Shown here piece by piece: positions 4,979-12,614 of a DNA stretch of 12,614 bases. Both the position numbers and the translations under genes were made by a program. A model generated the notes under the pieces. It ran no database searches. It had not been told where the DNA came from and worked only from the letters and a program-made list of their open reading frames with translations. The stretch is taken from assembly GCA_020433785.1 (NCBI GenBank), contig JAGRCC010000620.1:1-12614 (forward strand), given 5' to 3'. This DNA comes from Anaerolineae bacterium (lineage in GTDB: Bacteria > Chloroflexota > Anaerolineae > 4572-78 > J111). Every line of letters begins with the position of its first letter. Position 1 is the stretch's first letter.

Positions 4979-6433
4979 TTAGTAAGTCCAGGGCGGAATG
5001 ACGACAGCCTGATCAGGCTGCAAGCCTTCATCCAGGCTCATACCATTCGCGTCAGCCACAGTCCCTGGAGCCAGGCCACACTCATAGGCAATCGAGTCCA
5101 GCGTATCGTATGGCTGGGCAATATAAACGTTAGGGCCTTCTCTGAGCTGGCCGGTTGGAATAAACATCCCCTGTCCTTCGAAGACATAGGCATCGGCATT
5201 AATATCATTCAGAAACGCCAGATCGGGAATAGGTACGTCAAACTCTTGGGAGATACCGAACAACGTATCGCCGTATTCAACTCGATAACAAAAGCCTACC
5301 GTCCCGGCATTTGAGGCTGATTGAATCGCTGCGGCTACGGAAACCGAACTTTTTTGACTGGATTCCTCGTTCGATTCTTCACTATCAGCATCTTCTTGCT
5401 GCGAAGGCGGGGTTGGTCCCACCACCGTCACGTCGGCAGTATCGGTGGCTGTAGCGCCACAGTTATCGGTCACGGTTAGAGTCGCCTGATAAGTGCCGTT
5501 ATTCTTGTAACCGTGAGTTACACTCTGGCCTTCCTCAGTCGGGGTGCCATCGCCAAATTCCCAACTATAGGTGTCGATTGTACCGTCGGGATCGCCGGAG
5601 CCGCTGCCGTCAAAGATAACAACCGCTTGCCCTTTACCTTGCATCGCGTTGTAGGGGCCGTTGGCGTCGGCGATGGGCGGCATATTCCCGTCGCAGCTAA
5701 CCGGAGCTTCGCCGGTCGGTTCGCCCGTGGGTTCAGCACCCGGCGACTCGCCGGTGGGTTCACCGGTCGGTTCCATACCCGGTGTTTCGCCGGTCGCTTC
5801 ATCTGTGGTTTCAGCACCAGACGGCTCGCCGGTGGGTTCGCCCGTCGATTCCATACCCGGTGTTTCACCGGTCGGTTCGCCCGTCGATTCCATACCCGGT
5901 GTTTCGCCGTTTGATTCGCCCATGGATTCCATATCGGCGGTTTCACCAGTTGGTTCACCGGTGGGTTCCATACCCGATGTTTCGCCGGTCGGTTCGCCCG
6001 TGGGTTCAACGGTGGCGCCGGGTGGTAACGGTTCGGTTGTGCCCGGCGGCGGCAGTGGCTCGCCGGTCGCTTCACCATTTGCTTCTTGGGGCTCTCCTGT
6101 TGATGGCGGCACTTCACTGGTCCCTTCGCCAGGAGTCAGTCCTTCGTCAGTCGGCTGAGCGGTTGTTTGGACGGGCGGTATATCTCCCACTCGCGGCGGA
6201 CTGATGCCGGGAATTTCAAATGGCAGTCGGGGCAAGAGGAAGAAGCAGAGGACACACAGCAACGCCAGCACCAACAGAATTAAAATAATAAGGCGCAGCG
6301 GACTCTGGCGGCGAACCTCTACCACTTCTTCGTCATCATCAATGGCTTCAGCCTCATACTCTTCTTGAGGCTCATTCTCCTCATCTTCGTCGTTATACTC
6401 AAATGAGCTCCGAAGGTCATCCAGGTTTGACAT
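4979..6433 (-). CDS. Membrane-anchored PKD/LysM cell-wall protein with 13-residue repeat stalk
   Basis: A 484-residue single-pass protein. Residues 1-45 are cytoplasmic and extremely acidic (runs of Asp and Glu), followed by an Arg-Arg pair and a membrane segment (48-69). A Pro/Thr/Gly/Glu-rich stalk (80-246) contains eight 13-residue repeats. Residues 252-337 are a PKD domain with the typical WEFGDG (291-296) and GTYQATLTVTD strand. After an acidic-Ser linker come two LysM modules, about 383-426 (YRVEYGDTLFGIS start) and 437-480. LysM binds N-acetylglucosamine glycans such as peptidoglycan; PKD is a beta-sandwich spacer or binding module. The protein therefore probably sits in the cytoplasmic membrane and grips the wall. 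The ATG at 6433 has AAGGAG upstream at good spacing. A strong promoter precedes it and a hairpin terminator follows, so it looks like a single-gene unit. Confidence 0.87.
   Translation of the reverse strand: MSNLDDLRSSFEYNDEDEENEPQEEYEAEAIDDDEEVVEVRRQSPLRLIILILLVLALLCVLCFFLLPRLPFEIPGISPPRVGDIPPVQTTAQPTDEGLTPGEGTSEVPPSTGEPQEANGEATGEPLPPPGTTEPLPPGATVEPTGEPTGETSGMEPTGEPTGETADMESMGESNGETPGMESTGEPTGETPGMESTGEPTGEPSGAETTDEATGETPGMEPTGEPTGESPGAEPTGEPTGEAPVSCDGNMPPIADANGPYNAMQGKGQAVVIFDGSGSGDPDGTIDTYSWEFGDGTPTEEGQSVTHGYKNNGTYQATLTVTDNCGATATDTADVTVVGPTPPSQQEDADSEESNEESSQKSSVSVAAAIQSASNAGTVGFCYRVEYGDTLFGISQEFDVPIPDLAFLNDINADAYVFEGQGMFIPTGQLREGPNVYIAQPYDTLDSIAYECGLAPGTVADANGMSLDEGLQPDQAVVIPPWTY
5696..6007 (-). 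repeat. Eight tandem 39-bp coding repeats (13 residues each)
   Basis: Residues 143-246 of the PKD/LysM protein divide exactly into eight units of 13 residues without indels. The consensus is EPTGEPTGETPGM, and units 3 and 6 (ESMGESNGETPGM and ETTDEATGETPGM) are the most divergent. Such phase-perfect tandem units are typical of surface stalks that change length by recombination or slippage. Confidence 0.9.
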
Positions 6434-6599: not shown

Positions 6600-9149
6600 G
6601 TGATCCCCATTAAATTAAAGCTTCGCAACTTTATGGCTTATCAAGATGCTGAATTAAATTTTCAAGGTCTGCATTTGGCGGCGCTAACCGGTGAAAACGG
6701 CGCCGGCAAAAGCAGCCTGCTCGACGCGATCACATGGGTGGTTTGGGGTAAGGGCCGCGCCAAAAGAGACGACGAAATGATCCGTTTAGGGCAGACAGAG
6801 ATGGAGGTGGAGTACACCTTTGACCTGAATAACAACATTTACCGGATCATCCGCAAACGAGATGCCAGCAAGCGAGGCCGAAGCGATTTGAGCTTTCAGG
6901 TTCAAGATGCCGGCGGCTGGCGCACTCTATCCGAAAGCAGCCTGCGGGCTACCGAGAAAAAAATCAACGATATCATGCGGTTGGATTACGACACCTTCAT
7001 CAACTCGGCTTTTTTGCTGCAAGGGCGGGCCGATGAATTTACGACGAAGGCCCCGGCCCAACGCAAGAAAATTTTAGGCGATATTCTGGGGTTGGCGATT
7101 TATGATCTCTACGCCGACCGCGCCAAGCAACGCGCCAATGAAAAAGATCGTGAGGCGGCCATCATTGAAGCGGAGATGAGCCAAATTGAACGAGAGTTGG
7201 CCCGCGAGCCGGAGTACCGGGCTAATCTAATCGAGGCAGAAAAAGCGGTTGCTTCATTATATACAGATTTGCAAGCAGCGGAGCAAACCCATTTAACCCT
7301 CCGCGATCAGCACCGAGCCATCAACGACAAGCAGCGCCAGCTTGACGATTTGAGGGACCGACTATCGGGCGCGCAGGCCGATATCGCCGATTTGGATGAA
7401 GCCATTGCCGCCGCGCAGCAGGCGATTGAACGGTATAAAACTATACTTAATCGCCGGGACGAAATTGAGGCCGGGTTGAGCCGATTGAGCCAGGCCCGCG
7501 AAACTTTAAAGGATTGGGATCAACGGCTGCGCGAATCGACTGAACTGGCCAATCAAAAGTATGCCTTGGACAGCGCCCGACGTGAAGCCGAAGCTAAAAT
7601 CAAAGCGGATTTGCGAGAAGTCGAAACTCGAATTAACATGCTGACGCCAAAAGTGACCAATATGGAGATGCAGCGGTCTCAGTTAAAGCAGGCCCAAACT
7701 GAACTCGATACCCTGACGGCTTTGGAAAAAGAGCAAGAAACGCAGCGGGCTATGCAGCAAGCCCTAGCTGAAGAATCGGCTCGATTGACCGAACAAAATC
7801 GACAATTCAAGCAGGAAATGGAAAATATTAAGGACAGCCTGACTCAGTTAGAGCAGGCGGCCTTCAATTGTCCAATTTGCCGGCGGCCGTTAGATGAAAC
7901 TCACCGGCAAGAGGTGTTGGCTCAATACCAGGCCGAAGGTACAGCCAAAGGCGATCAATTCCGCGCTAACCGGACTCGCTTGCAGGAAATTGTCGAACAG
8001 CAAGCCCAATTGAAACACAGTCTGACTCAGAACGAAAAAGTACTGCGGGAGACCGCCAAGCTCCAGCGAACGGCAGCCCAACTTGAGCAGCTCCTACAAG
8101 AGGCCGAGCAAGCCGCCATTGACCTGGCGGCCAGCCGGGGACAGGAAGGCGAGCTACAAAAACGGCTTGAGCAGCAAGATTTTGCACTCGATGTATTTAA
8201 TAATCTCAAAAATGTTGAGGCAGAATTAGCTAAATTAGGGTATAATAAAAACGCGCATGATCAGGCTCAGGCCGAGGTTGAACAGTGGGTCCACTTTGAG
8301 GATGAGGGCCGCGCTTTAACCGAAGCTGACAAACGCATCAAAGAAGAAGAAAAACGCCAGGAGCGGGATCGGGCCAGGTTGCAACGGTTGTTGGAACAAA
8401 CCGCCGCCGATCGCGCGCGAGTGGCTGAACTGGAAACTGAAACGGCCGGATTAGCCGAGCTTAGTCTCAAGCTTAATCAGGCTAGCGCGGCGCTGGATGC
8501 CACCCAATTTCAATATCGTTTGGCTCAAGACAAGGTCGCCTCAACCAAACAGCAGTTAGATCATATCGCCTATCAGGTCAAAGAGCGGGCTAAAAAAGAA
8601 GAACAGCTTCAGCAGGTTCGGGAGGCGTTGGGCGTTTATAAAGAGTTACAGGTGGCTTTCGGTAAAAAGGGGGTTCAGGCCCTGCTCATCGAAAGCGCTA
8701 TTCCTGAAATAGAAGAAGAAGCCAACCGCCTGCTCACCCGTATGACCGATGGCCGAATGAATATTCGCTTTGAAACGCAGCGCGAAGCCAAAAGCGGCGA
8801 CAGCACCATCGAAACACTTGATATTCGGATTGCCGATGAGGTCGGCACGCGCGATTACGAAATGTATTCCGGCGGCGAAGCCTTTCGCATCAACTTCGCC
8901 ATTCGAGTGGCCATCAGCAAAATTCTGGCCCGACGAGCCGGAGCGCGCTTGCAAACGCTGGTTTTGGACGAAGGCTTCGGCACGCAAGACGTACAGGGTC
9001 GAGAGCGGCTGGTTGAAGCCATCAACGCCATTCAAGATGATTTTGAAAAGATCATCGTAATCACGCACATCGATGAATTAAAGGATGCTTTTCCGGCCCG
9101 GATCGACGTTTGGAAAACATCTCAGGGGAGTCAGTTGGCTATTCGCTAG
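6600..9149 (+). CDS. sbcC: SbcC/Rad50-type SMC-like ATPase
   Basis: An 849-residue ATPase with all landmarks of SbcC/Rad50. Walker A is G31-E-N-G-A-G-K-S38, the Q-loop glutamine is Q141 (FLLQGRADEF), and a long coiled coil covers about residues 165-700. It is broken by a zinc hook C424-P-I-C427, through which two molecules join around one Zn ion. The C-terminal lobe has the signature S757-G-G-E760, Walker B with D790-E791, and switch histidine H823. The family works with the SbcD/Mre11 nuclease to open and trim DNA ends and hairpins. At 849 residues it is nearer archaeal Rad50 than the roughly 1,050-residue E. coli SbcC. The start is GTG at 6600 with AGAGG six bases upstream. No sbcD/mre11 gene adjoins it, although the two are usually neighbours. 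The next gene begins 41 bp downstream and may be co-transcribed. Confidence 0.95.
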   Translation: MIPIKLKLRNFMAYQDAELNFQGLHLAALTGENGAGKSSLLDAITWVVWGKGRAKRDDEMIRLGQTEMEVEYTFDLNNNIYRIIRKRDASKRGRSDLSFQVQDAGGWRTLSESSLRATEKKINDIMRLDYDTFINSAFLLQGRADEFTTKAPAQRKKILGDILGLAIYDLYADRAKQRANEKDREAAIIEAEMSQIERELAREPEYRANLIEAEKAVASLYTDLQAAEQTHLTLRDQHRAINDKQRQLDDLRDRLSGAQADIADLDEAIAAAQQAIERYKTILNRRDEIEAGLSRLSQARETLKDWDQRLRESTELANQKYALDSARREAEAKIKADLREVETRINMLTPKVTNMEMQRSQLKQAQTELDTLTALEKEQETQRAMQQALAEESARLTEQNRQFKQEMENIKDSLTQLEQAAFNCPICRRPLDETHRQEVLAQYQAEGTAKGDQFRANRTRLQEIVEQQAQLKHSLTQNEKVLRETAKLQRTAAQLEQLLQEAEQAAIDLAASRGQEGELQKRLEQQDFALDVFNNLKNVEAELAKLGYNKNAHDQAQAEVEQWVHFEDEGRALTEADKRIKEEEKRQERDRARLQRLLEQTAADRARVAELETETAGLAELSLKLNQASAALDATQFQYRLAQDKVASTKQQLDHIAYQVKERAKKEEQLQQVREALGVYKELQVAFGKKGVQALLIESAIPEIEEEANRLLTRMTDGRMNIRFETQREAKSGDSTIETLDIRIADEVGTRDYEMYSGGEAFRINFAIRVAISKILARRAGARLQTLVLDEGFGTQDVQGRERLVEAINAIQDDFEKIIVITHIDELKDAFPARIDVWKTSQGSQLAIR

Positions 9150-9190: not shown

Positions 9191-10282
9191 ATGTCACACT
9201 CAGGCGACTCGCTGTCACGTGAACAGCGCATCCGAAAACAAGCTGAACTTCAGGCGCTCTATAATGCCTTGTCCAATCTAAGAGACCGTGAGCTTTCCTA
9301 TATAGAAGCTTCCGCCGCCGTACCTGAACTATCCGTCAATCAAACCAACCAGATTCGGCACCGAATTGTGGCCATCGAAGGCGAACTGCTGACTGCCTCC
9401 GGCGAAGAGGATACCTCGGACACGTTTGCGCACCGTTTCTATCGAGAGGGGTTTGAGGCCGAACTGGCCGGCGATGGCGACAAAGCCATTAAGCTGTACA
9501 AAAAAGCCGATCGGTACGATCATCAAGACGCCGAGATGGCCATCCGTAGCCTCCGCTATCGGATTAGACGGGAAAGAACGATTCCCCGAGATCTACAAGC
9601 CTGGCTCCCGCCGCCAGCGCATAATCTCAGAAATCGATTAATTGTGGGCGTAGCCGCCGTTTTAATCTGCACGCCACTGGCTATTTTTATTTTTTATCGA
9701 AGCAATTCACTCCAGACATCGCCAGATATCGCCGCTGAACTGACCGCTACCCTTACCCTAACCCCTACTCCGGTGGCCGTTCAACTGATTGTCCCCGACA
9801 CCGCAACCCCTCTCCCTACGTTTACCTCCACTCCGCTGCCCTTGCCCTCCGTTCCCCCGCTCCCTACTCGCACCGCCCTGGCCACTACCGCCGATACAGC
9901 CACGGCAGCGCCGCCGGCAACGCCGACTCTCGTTTTTCTGCCTGCACCTAAAATTATTGGTCCCCGGGATGGATTAGTCTGGCTCGATGGGGCCGTGGTG
10001 TTTGAATTCGAGCCGGTCGATTTACAACCTGATGACCTTTACTGCTTGAACACCCTGCGCGGTTTGGACAGCACTAATACCGAAAACTGGAGCTATCCCC
10101 CCACCGGCAATGAAAAACCGATTATTGCCGTTCAGGCCAATGTGCTTCGAGTAGCCCAGGTTCAGGGCATGCAGTGCATTATTTGGTCAGCCGCAATTGG
10201 CCGGGGAAACTGCGACAACATTATTAGCGATAGTACGTCAGAACGGGTGATCGGCTTACCTCGGGTGTGTGATCTTAATTAA
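9191..10282 (+). CDS. Single-pass membrane protein with helical cytoplasmic domain and four-cysteine ectodomain
   Basis: A 363-residue protein I do not recognise as a named family. Residues 8-68 are predicted helical, a short coiled-coil hairpin. Residues 80-128 resemble one TPR-like helix pair (FYREGFEAELAGDGDKAIKL and following). A membrane segment covers about 149-169, with basic residues on its N-terminal side, so the N-terminus is cytoplasmic. Then comes a Thr/Pro-rich stalk (about 185-250, with TPTP) and an external domain of about 110 residues (253-363). It begins PKIIGPRDG, has the strand pattern of an Ig-like fold, and carries four cysteines (285, 329, 341, 360) that could form two disulfides. 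It follows the sbcC-like gene by 41 bp with only a weak ribosome binding site (AGAG), so they may share a transcript without sharing a function. A role in envelope sensing or adhesion is possible but unproven. Confidence 0.75.
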   Translation: MSHSGDSLSREQRIRKQAELQALYNALSNLRDRELSYIEASAAVPELSVNQTNQIRHRIVAIEGELLTASGEEDTSDTFAHRFYREGFEAELAGDGDKAIKLYKKADRYDHQDAEMAIRSLRYRIRRERTIPRDLQAWLPPPAHNLRNRLIVGVAAVLICTPLAIFIFYRSNSLQTSPDIAAELTATLTLTPTPVAVQLIVPDTATPLPTFTSTPLPLPSVPPLPTRTALATTADTATAAPPATPTLVFLPAPKIIGPRDGLVWLDGAVVFEFEPVDLQPDDLYCLNTLRGLDSTNTENWSYPPTGNEKPIIAVQANVLRVAQVQGMQCIIWSAAIGRGNCDNIISDSTSERVIGLPRVCDLN

Positions 10283-10485: not shown

Positions 10486-10513
10486 TTGTTAATTCAATTT
10501 TTCTGTTTAAAAT
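10486..10513 (+). promoter_or_regulatory. Candidate promoter of the phosphoglycerate dehydrogenase fusion gene
   Basis: TTGTTA (10486-10491), a 16-bp spacer and TAAAAT (10508-10513) form a fair sigma-70-type promoter. The start would lie near 10520, giving a leader of under 20 nt with the AAAGGAAC ribosome binding site and the ATG at 10537. The AT-rich surroundings make chance matches likely. Confidence 0.35.
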
Positions 10514-10536
10514 TAACTATAGAAAGGAACAATACA

Positions 10537-12285
10537 ATGGACGCCAATCGCCGCCGGCCCCGAGTACTGATTTGTGATCAGATCGCGGAGGCAGGCATCG
10601 ATCTTCTCCGCGAGCATGCCGATGTCGATATTAAGACCGGGCTAACGCCTGAAGAGCTGTTGAAGATCATTGGCAACTATGAGGCGGTTGTGGTTAGAAG
10701 CGCCACCAAAATCAGAGCCAATGCGATTGAGCGGGCCTACAGCCTGAAAGTGATTGGACGGGCCGGAGCCGGTTTGGATAATATCGATGTTGATGCGGCT
10801 CAAAAGCGCGGTATCAAGGTGGTCAACTGCCCCGACGCCAACACCCGGGCGGTAGCAGAACATACGATGGCGATGATGCTGGCCCTGGCTCGACACCTGC
10901 CTGAAGCGGACACCAGCTTAAAGGAAGGGCGTTGGGAAAAGAACAAACTGATGGGGACAGGCTTGTTTGGTAAAACATTGGGGATCATCGGTTTTGGCCG
11001 GATTGGCCGCGAGGTGGCGATTCGTGCGCAGGCTTTTGGGATGAAAGTGCTGGTCAACCAGCGTCGTCCCACCCCGGAACTCAACCTGGAGGCGAAAGTC
11101 CAGGCGGTTGATTTGAATGATCTGCTCCAACAATCAGACTTTGTCACTCTGCACGTGCCGGCCAAACCGGAAACCGAACATCTCATCGGAGCTGAGCAAT
11201 TGGCCCTGATGCGCCCTACCGCTTACCTCATTAACACCGCCAGAGGAACGGTAGTCAACGAGGCCGCACTGCTCGAGGCGTTAAATCAAGGTCTCATTGC
11301 CGGCGCGGCGCTCGACGTCTTCGCCAAAGAGCCGGCCATCGACAGCCAATTGGCTCAGCACGAACGGGTTATCGCCACACCGCACGTTGCCGCCAGCACC
11401 GAAGATGCCCAAAACTTGGCGGCGATCACCGTCGCCCAGCAGATCATCGATATTATCGATGCGGTGCCGGTCGATAATCCCCTCTCACTCCGCATCGTGC
11501 CCACCGCCAAAGTGGTTCCACACGAAAACACCGATCCCCGACGGGTCGAGCGGTTGGTGCAGCGACTGGAGGAAGACGGTATTTTGGCTAATCCGCCGGT
11601 AGTGATTGAGGCCGATGATCGGTATGTCGTGCTTGATGGAGCCACTCGCGTCAAGGCGGTAAAGGCCATGAAAATTCCGCACTTATTAGTGCAACTGGCC
11701 TCATCTGAAACTGGACTTGAATTACAAAGCTGGTATCATGTCATTCGACACATAGAATTACCACAGCTTATGGATTTGCTTAATGCTGTTCCAACTGTCT
11801 CTTTGCGGCAAACAGATCCCCGGCATGTCCACAACGAAATGGTCGAGTACGGCGGGCTATGCTTTCTGCGCACCATCGAGAACAAACTTTACCTGGTTGA
11901 GGCCAGGCCGGGGATTAACAAGCTGGAGGCGTTGAATCAGTTGACCGAAACCTATATCAACGCCAGCTATGTCACCCGAACCCTGGAGGGCCAACTCGAC
12001 CACCTACGTGATGAGTATCCTGACATGGCCGCCGTGGTTGTCTTCAGCAACTATACCACTGAGCAGATTTTGCAGATAGTCCAGGCCGGCCATTTTCTAC
12101 CGGCCGGTATCACCCGTTTCATTGTGTCGGATCGCGTATTGCGGGTCAACCTTGGGCTGGACTATCTCAGATCGGATGAGTCGCTGCTGGACAAGAATAA
12201 ATGGCTACGCCAACTGGTTATCGAAAAGCTAGGCAACAGTCAGGCCAGGTACTACGCTGAGTCGGTTTATTTGATGGATGAGTAA
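10537..12285 (+). CDS. D-3-phosphoglycerate dehydrogenase fused to an SbnI/SerK-like (ParB/Srx-fold) serine kinase domain
   Basis: A 582-residue two-part protein. Residues 1-315 are a D-2-hydroxyacid dehydrogenase of the SerA type. The NAD-binding loop is G152-F-G-R-I-G157, the catalytic residues are R236 (NTARG), E265 (AKEP) and H283 (PHVAAST), and GRAGAGLDN and the NTRAVAEHT segment are typical of 3-phosphoglycerate dehydrogenase. This enzyme oxidises 3-phosphoglycerate to 3-phosphohydroxypyruvate, the first step of serine synthesis. The usual C-terminal ASB and ACT domains are absent. Residues about 318-582 instead resemble SbnI/SerK. They have the H329-E330-x-x-D-P-R335 segment, VVLDGATR (364-371), LPAGITRF (521-528) and the closing RYYAES (571-576). 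SbnI and SerK phosphorylate free L-serine to O-phosphoserine. The DGHHR-type motif of known kinases is D367-G-A-T-R371 here, so kinase activity is uncertain; a serine-sensing role is the alternative. The ATG at 10537 is chosen over an open frame from 10486 for its AAGGAA site. Confidence 0.88.
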   Translation: MDANRRRPRVLICDQIAEAGIDLLREHADVDIKTGLTPEELLKIIGNYEAVVVRSATKIRANAIERAYSLKVIGRAGAGLDNIDVDAAQKRGIKVVNCPDANTRAVAEHTMAMMLALARHLPEADTSLKEGRWEKNKLMGTGLFGKTLGIIGFGRIGREVAIRAQAFGMKVLVNQRRPTPELNLEAKVQAVDLNDLLQQSDFVTLHVPAKPETEHLIGAEQLALMRPTAYLINTARGTVVNEAALLEALNQGLIAGAALDVFAKEPAIDSQLAQHERVIATPHVAASTEDAQNLAAITVAQQIIDIIDAVPVDNPLSLRIVPTAKVVPHENTDPRRVERLVQRLEEDGILANPPVVIEADDRYVVLDGATRVKAVKAMKIPHLLVQLASSETGLELQSWYHVIRHIELPQLMDLLNAVPTVSLRQTDPRHVHNEMVEYGGLCFLRTIENKLYLVEARPGINKLEALNQLTETYINASYVTRTLEGQLDHLRDEYPDMAAVVVFSNYTTEQILQIVQAGHFLPAGITRFIVSDRVLRVNLGLDYLRSDESLLDKNKWLRQLVIEKLGNSQARYYAESVYLMDE

Positions 12286-12459: not shown

Positions 12460-12614
12460 ATGGCGGTCAAACCCATTGTAATGTATAGTGAAAATGAAGC
12501 CGCGTTACGCAAAAAGAGCGAGCCGGTGCGCGTGATGAACCGGCATGTCAAAAAAATCATTCGCGATCTCAAAGATACGCTGCTGCACTGCGATAACGGC
12601 ATCGGTTTGGCTGC
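12460..12614 (+). CDS. def: Peptide deformylase, N-terminal part (cut by window end)
   Basis: The first 51 codons of an open frame that runs off the window. The protein begins MAVKPIVMYSENEALR-like (with an extra Ala) and reaches N-G-I-G-L-A-(A), which is the first conserved motif of peptide deformylase (G-x-G-L-A-A-x-Q). This loop shapes the active site next to the metal. The enzyme removes the formyl group from the initiator methionine of new proteins in the cytoplasm. The spacing from start to the GIGLAA motif, about 45 residues, fits the family. GAGGA at 12444-12448 lies 11 bases upstream, a little far but usable. The Cys and HExxH metal ligands lie beyond the window, so integrity cannot be judged. 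Confidence 0.88.
   Translation, partial: MAVKPIVMYSENEAALRKKSEPVRVMNRHVKKIIRDLKDTLLHCDNGIGLA

Follow-up and report, generated by a model that had tools for sequence, protein, structure and literature searches.

The window, the whole 12,614-nucleotide stretch of Anaerolineae DNA analysed here, encodes a 582-residue protein in which a single uninterrupted reading frame joins a D-2-hydroxyacid dehydrogenase core to a domain of the SbnI/SerK type (Table 1), as an earlier sequence-only reading of this DNA had proposed. This combination of two known enzyme families is real and conserved and, apparently, undescribed: no paper describing a fusion of phosphoglycerate dehydrogenase (PGDH) with SerK or SbnI was found in the open-access PMC literature, preprints being outside that scope, and the words "dehydrogenase" and "phosphoglycerate" are absent from the main text of a 2025 survey of ParB-fold fusions (PMC12704722). 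An assembly or frameshift artefact, a possibility raised by the sequence-only reading itself, is ruled out by the recurrence of the fusion across many clusters and contigs.

We see about an even chance that the protein is a bifunctional enzyme, serine kinase and PGDH in one, that acts by way of O-phosphoserine (OPS). The C-terminal domain would phosphorylate free L-serine to OPS, a phosphoserine aminotransferase, whose putative gene lies upstream of the fusion in some relatives, would connect both ends by interconverting OPS and 3-phosphohydroxypyruvate, and the N-terminal domain would catalyse the step between 3-phosphohydroxypyruvate and 3-phosphoglycerate in either direction, its cofactor probably being NADP(H) and not NAD(H). 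Fusion and aminotransferase together would then cover all three steps that lead from serine to 3-phosphoglycerate, in the manner of the serine-assimilation path suggested for Thermococcus SerK, and regulated serine synthesis would be left to a separate, longer SerA of ACT-bearing length encoded elsewhere in the genome.

Table 1. Features of the fusion gene and its product, in window coordinates
Feature	Position	Strand	Remark
Fusion gene, 582 aa	10537..12285	+	Coordinates include stop
Probable ribosome binding site AGAAAGGA	10521..10528	+	Inference from reading the sequence
D-2-hydroxyacid dehydrogenase core, residues 10-315, PF00389/PF02826, PGDH-like	10564..11481	+	
R54, probable substrate-phosphate Arg	10696..10698	+	Aligned with maize PGDH Arg
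K135, probable second phosphate contact (human R134', E. coli K141')	10939..10941	+	Aligned with maize PGDH Arg
Dinucleotide loop GFGRIG, residues 152-157	10990..11007	+	
Cofactor loop N174-Q-R-R177 replacing SerA Asp	11056..11067	+	Alignment to maize PGDH (HDPY)
Catalytic R236	11242..11244	+	
Catalytic E265	11329..11331	+	
Catalytic H283	11383..11385	+	
SbnI/SerK-type free-serine-kinase-like domain, residues 317-582	11485..12282	+	
E330, aligned with SerK E30 and SbnI E20	11524..11526	+	Alignment, numbering by hand
D367, aligned with SerK D69 and SbnI D58	11635..11637	+	Alignment, numbering by hand
PAGITR motif, residues 522-527, common to SbnI (PAGVTRF)	12100..12117	+	

An in-frame TTG at 10486 was considered as an alternative start and judged unlikely.

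With the whole 582-residue model, the best 50 fold matches were dehydrogenases only, and the C-terminal part was therefore folded separately. Alone, it matches the SbnI/SerK fold over its full length and well above ParB, which upholds the identity assigned to this region from the sequence and speaks against an unrelated fold. The domain is a distant relative rather than SbnI or SerK itself, since its scores against the NCBIfam models NF033589 (SbnI, 85.4 of 350 bits) and NF053625 (SerK, 31.1 of 380 bits) lie far under both equivalog cut-offs. SbnI, the staphyloferrin B L-serine kinase (PDB 5ujd, 6nr6), is a stand-alone protein of a siderophore cluster. The ADP-dependent SerK (TK0378; PDB 5x0b), 14% identical to the fusion domain over the fold alignment, is likewise a stand-alone protein, of archaeal origin, whereas the window's domain is fused to a PGDH core.

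The same region gives a weak Pfam match to ParB_N (E 0.063), and the NCBIfam name for SbnI is bifunctional transcriptional regulator/O-phospho-L-serine synthase; the domain might thus be no metabolic enzyme but a regulator or nucleotide switch of the ParB type, in line with the regulator part of SbnI's name. We hold this to be very improbable: the alignment to Noc/ParB is limited to about 86 residues as against the full length for SerK/SbnI, the informative gene neighbours belong to amino-acid metabolism, and no HTH DNA-binding domain was present among the Pfam matches of the fusion protein, whereas ParB CTPases combine a ParB-N lobe with an HTH. According to one survey (PMC12704722), a SerK-like archaeal protein bound CTP instead of ATP, a point against the bifunctional reading. 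Database names for the relatives of the fusion are oxidoreductase, phosphoglycerate dehydrogenase-like, hypothetical or ParB-domain protein.

The active-site Glu and Asp of SerK, E30 and D69, are both present in the fusion, as E330 and D367. They are kept in 284/284 and 286/286 readable copies, respectively, from a set of 286 domain copies in which some genes are counted twice via overlapping loci. Across the window's protein and 120 listed relatives, H329, E330, D333, R336, D367, G368, R371, W399, H401, G524, T526 and R527 are invariant (121/121); these relatives were chosen by similarity to the kinase part, a bias favouring its conservation, and the wider 286-copy set, which includes the genome sample, agrees on the invariance of E330 and D367. 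R336 is replaced by His in the fusions of G114, G133 and G094 (L104, L106 and L108), an aminotransferase-linked branch, and is otherwise nearly invariant. We take D69 of SerK to be a catalytic residue. As for E30, it is mutated in PDB 5x0k and 5x0e, and the E30A and E30Q structures contain, by their titles, phosphoserine and AMP; binding would thus not require the Glu, which suggests that it is conserved for catalysis.

The dehydrogenase half of the window's protein displays the SerA features, an Arg-Glu-His triad and GxGxxG, and matches TIGR01327 below cut-off (381.6 of 454 bits) over model positions 1-310 of 525. Both phosphate-contact positions (human R53/R134') are basic, being occupied by R54 and K135 in the alignment with the maize PGDH Arg residues; their match to the human and E. 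coli numbering was made by eye and is tentative. The phosphate-contact role of the corresponding human residues is described in PMC6300728. The cofactor loop departs from SerA, as the conserved Asp associated with NAD preference is absent and Q175 stands in its place; this position is Q in 103, E in 13, D in 1 and M in 1 of the 118 proteins with a letter there, drawn from the 120 listed relatives and the window. In a survey of 2HADH enzymes (PMC6303947), the SERA Asp of the cofactor loop is reported as highly conserved and linked to NADH, almost all dehydrogenases as using NAD+ only, and reductases as using either cofactor. The loops NQRR and NQPR differ from the GHRA NADP fingerprint given in that survey, and the use of NADP(H) by the fusion is thus a guess. 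In the core of type III D-3-phosphoglycerate dehydrogenase (PDB 1wwk), Asp specifies NAD where the fusion has Gln; this type carries nothing C-terminal, whereas the fusion carries the kinase-like domain, and types II and I carry ACT, or ASB plus ACT, at that end (types as described in PMC6300728).

Using residues 316-582 as query, 335 proteins were recovered at E<=1e-3; among the 120 listed, 112 have at least 500 residues. Organism names accompany 15/120, of which 14 are Anaerolineae, Anaerolineales, Ardenticatenales or Chloroflexi/Chloroflexota and one is a Deltaproteobacterium (P0118), and the shorter relatives include Desulfosarcinaceae, Desulfobacula and Desulfobacteraceae names. A contig search on the dehydrogenase motifs yielded mostly ordinary SerA-like matches, with the whole fusion spanned by one of 80 loci (L001), whose genome was the centre of the whole-genome searches. 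There, the domain was detected in 125/298 genomes sampled from the class of G001 (E<=1e-5) and in 21/301 sampled from its phylum (E<=1e-10). Dehydrogenase and domain share one frame in 35 of the 125 domain-bearing genomes, as was confirmed for G152 and G282; the remaining domain-bearing genomes mostly have frames of about 275-390 aa. The sets of 36 genomes mentioned below include G097, whose kinase frame is without dehydrogenase, and the 35 fusion genomes exclude it.

The dehydrogenase is less constant than its partner. Of the 113 proteins with 500 aa or more (the window's own and those among its 120 listed relatives), 21 lack one or more residues of R236/E265/H283. Moreover, nine genomes (G168, G291, G195, G001, G235, G182, G115, G068 and G282) have a third domain N-terminal in the same frame, exemplified by the 916-aa product of L001:2701-5451, in which a PLP domain of the Thr/Ser/hydroxyaspartate-dehydratase type precedes a decayed PGDH core and the SbnI/SerK-like domain. 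This third domain (PF00291) most closely resembles threo-3-hydroxyaspartate ammonia-lyase (427 of 452 bits) and Thr/Ser dehydratases, and those of the other eight genomes are 68-80% identical to it. The triad is incomplete in 8/8 triple fusions scored (G282 unscored), the Arg being replaced in each.

A quick tree was built from 103 of the 286 domain copies, leaving out duplicates, one contig-edge copy and rows not hand-chosen, with long branches flagged. One starred group of 83 rows contains every one of the 56 fused and triple rows together with 27 nested stand-alone copies, the stand-alone P rows possibly containing truncated annotations. The stand-alone label changes 14 times on the tree, at least 8 of these being forced by starred branches, and the triad state changes 8 times among the 56 scored rows (39 intact, 17 not). 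The simplest reading would be a single ancient fusion, after which the dehydrogenase was repeatedly lost or decayed while the kinase part stayed, gain and loss being not strictly separable since the tree is unrooted. No dehydrogenase match was found in the roughly 1.3-1.4 kb upstream of the stand-alone loci L084 and L089; L083 has only about 210 bases upstream. Another 19 loci (L114-L132) encode stand-alone SerK/SbnI-like proteins with the same E and D and form a separate deep branch of the tree. No recurring serine gene was seen beside the stand-alone kinase loci (20 loci, minus L114, L120 and L121; L142 missing for the fusions). Those of their recurrent neighbours that were inspected by eye are an M23/LysM-type peptidase, a prolyl-tRNA-synthetase-like protein and an RluD-like protein.

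The sequence-only reading had left a choice between a kinase and a substitute for ACT. The latter would be a kinase fold that binds serine and nucleotide with slow turnover or none and controls the attached enzyme in an ACT-like manner. The domain does occupy the exact place of ASB/ACT, and nine of the sampled genomes have the module fused in frame behind a PLP Thr/Ser/hydroxyaspartate-dehydratase-type domain, of a family that often carries ACT. Nevertheless, such a sensor seems unlikely to us, given the invariance of the catalytic Glu and Asp, the persistence of the domain where the dehydrogenase triad is lost or the dehydrogenase is absent, and the presence in 31/35 fusion genomes of another, separate SerA-like frame of 528-610 aa (none in G270, G191, G291 and G133; G201 has additional ones of 549 and 537 aa), which, judging from its length, would bear ACT. 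The first branch of that choice, a working kinase, is the one that we favour, because the Glu and Asp never vary, the domain is retained both by itself and next to a dead dehydrogenase, and in some branches the fusion follows an aminotransferase gene whose product probably acts on the same intermediate.

This class-V aminotransferase gene lies upstream of the fusion, close to it and on the same strand, in 8/35 fusion genomes. In G067, G034, G094, G133, G114 and G155 nothing was found between the two genes and the triads are REH in 6/6; in G095 and G001 a separate serA core (about 314 aa) is intercalated, and the triads are HSG and HEY. About 1.5 kb behind the fusion of G095 (L138:10282-10602), the kinase domain is matched a second time, partially and with one TGA, by a decayed or broken copy. 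When the aminotransferase of L138 served as query, 32/36 genomes matched at 1e-10, with one stop inside the matched stretch in G001 (C146), G282, G152, G053 and G177. In 9/36 genomes, the same aminotransferase family occurs on one strand in the order HAD - aminotransferase - serA, namely in G205, G195, G168, G182, G282, G115, G068 and G235, with serA frames of 528-561 aa, and in G273, where a short serA precedes one of 558 aa. As this is the order expected for serB-serC-serA, the neighbouring aminotransferase is taken as a phosphoserine aminotransferase, which it probably is. Against this identity, BhcA is the NCBIfam model that it fits best (198.9 for L138 and 205.3 for L142, of 650 bits) and the match to serC_3 is weak (105.2 and 81.8 of 401.65 bits), all under cut-off. 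For the HAD neighbours, too, the matches to serB are weak; SerB TIGR00338 is over cut-off in 2/36 genomes, with weak matches in the remainder. In 7 genomes, PF00266 proved too broad a family to name a SerC for the window-like group.

Within that group, no aminotransferase match at 1e-10 was obtained in G270, G201 and G162, and G279 gave a 32% match only; none was seen within 10 kb upstream of the window's fusion either. The operon evidence thus derives from other branches. The window's own neighbours with Pfam matches (Rce1-like protease, 2'-5' RNA ligase, pentapeptide, alpha/beta hydrolase, GNAT, PKD/LysM, SbcC-like and peptide deformylase) are uninformative for the serine pathway. The closest relative with flanking context compared, G201, shows 71-76% DNA identity in blocks around the fusion, in the same order. 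Several features of this surrounding region can be recorded. A peptide deformylase gene start (PF01327, 2e-6) lies directly 3' of the fusion (window 12460-12614), as also in G201 and G270. On the minus strand, window 4982-6433 encodes a PKD and LysM protein with, by eye, a long Thr/Pro/Gly/Glu-rich repeat (TGEPTGE-type). Window 6600-9149 encodes an SbcC/Rad50-like ATPase with a zinc hook and is followed at 9191-10282 by a gene whose product has no Pfam match and, by eye, one hydrophobic stretch; in G201 (L134), an 849-aa and then a 371-aa gene precede the fusion in the order found in the window.

Makino et al. (PMC5120207) showed free-serine kinase in Thermococcus and proposed the path from Ser through phosphoserine to 3PG. 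According to the same work, serK of Desulfurococcales has PGDH and aminotransferase genes in its vicinity, and that of Thermococcales is not clustered with them; the bacterial fusion repeats the former association as a single protein. A role in this reverse direction, from serine to 3-phosphoglycerate, was absent from the sequence-only reading and would agree better with both the cofactor loop and the operon.

Alternatively, the two halves may both supply OPS, one starting from 3PG and the other from serine, for a sulfhydrylase that uses OPS or for another OPS-derived product, a role compatible with the bifunctional reading and one that we consider doubtful. SbnI and SerK each supply OPS users, and CysE over its curated cut-off is rarer in fusion genomes (4/35) than in other domain-bearing (31/90) or domain-less ones (89/173; Fisher p 9.3e-6 for fusion against domain-less, kinship uncorrected and genome completeness not stated). 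Since cysKM-type genes over cut-off remain in 25/35 fusion genomes, OPS-dependent cysteine synthesis is possible in many of them. However, these CysE statistics ignore kinship, and the four CysE-bearing fusion genomes are G162, G201, G270 and G279, among them the window's closest compared relative, G201. Some weaker CysE match exists in 288/298 genomes. In addition, the CysK-like protein of G125, a genome with no CysE over cut-off, scores higher against ordinary cysteine synthases (2egu, 247.5 bits) than against the Mtb O-phosphoserine sulfhydrylase (225 bits), and cysM is the family that fits it best, below cut-off; this inspection of cysteine synthases covered L184, L189 and L194, the intended frame having been missed in L190 and L192. 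An OPS-dependent cysteine role is not indicated in the window's own branch.

Coming back to the bifunctional enzyme, a more detailed picture is possible, though we lean against its holding in every part: one protein would combine a serine kinase as first step with an NADPH-linked phosphohydroxypyruvate reductase as last step, the neighbouring aminotransferase would provide the middle one, the dehydrogenase half would have decayed to a scaffold in some branches, and in one branch a PLP serine/threonine-dehydratase-type enzyme would have captured the module.

Besides the archaeal enzymes, the characterised free-serine kinase is SbnI, from a staphylococcal siderophore cluster. The archaeal ones come from a few archaea (PMC5120207). 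If the kinase is active, phosphorylation of serine would be commonplace in bacteria and would open a way from serine back to glycolysis, considering that the domain is found in 125/298 sampled genomes of the class and is fused to PGDH in 35. Intact fusions, dead dehydrogenases, lost dehydrogenases and triple fusions form a natural series in which the purpose of the fusion can be probed. The finding suggests that a conserved double-headed enzyme would link serine and sugar metabolism.
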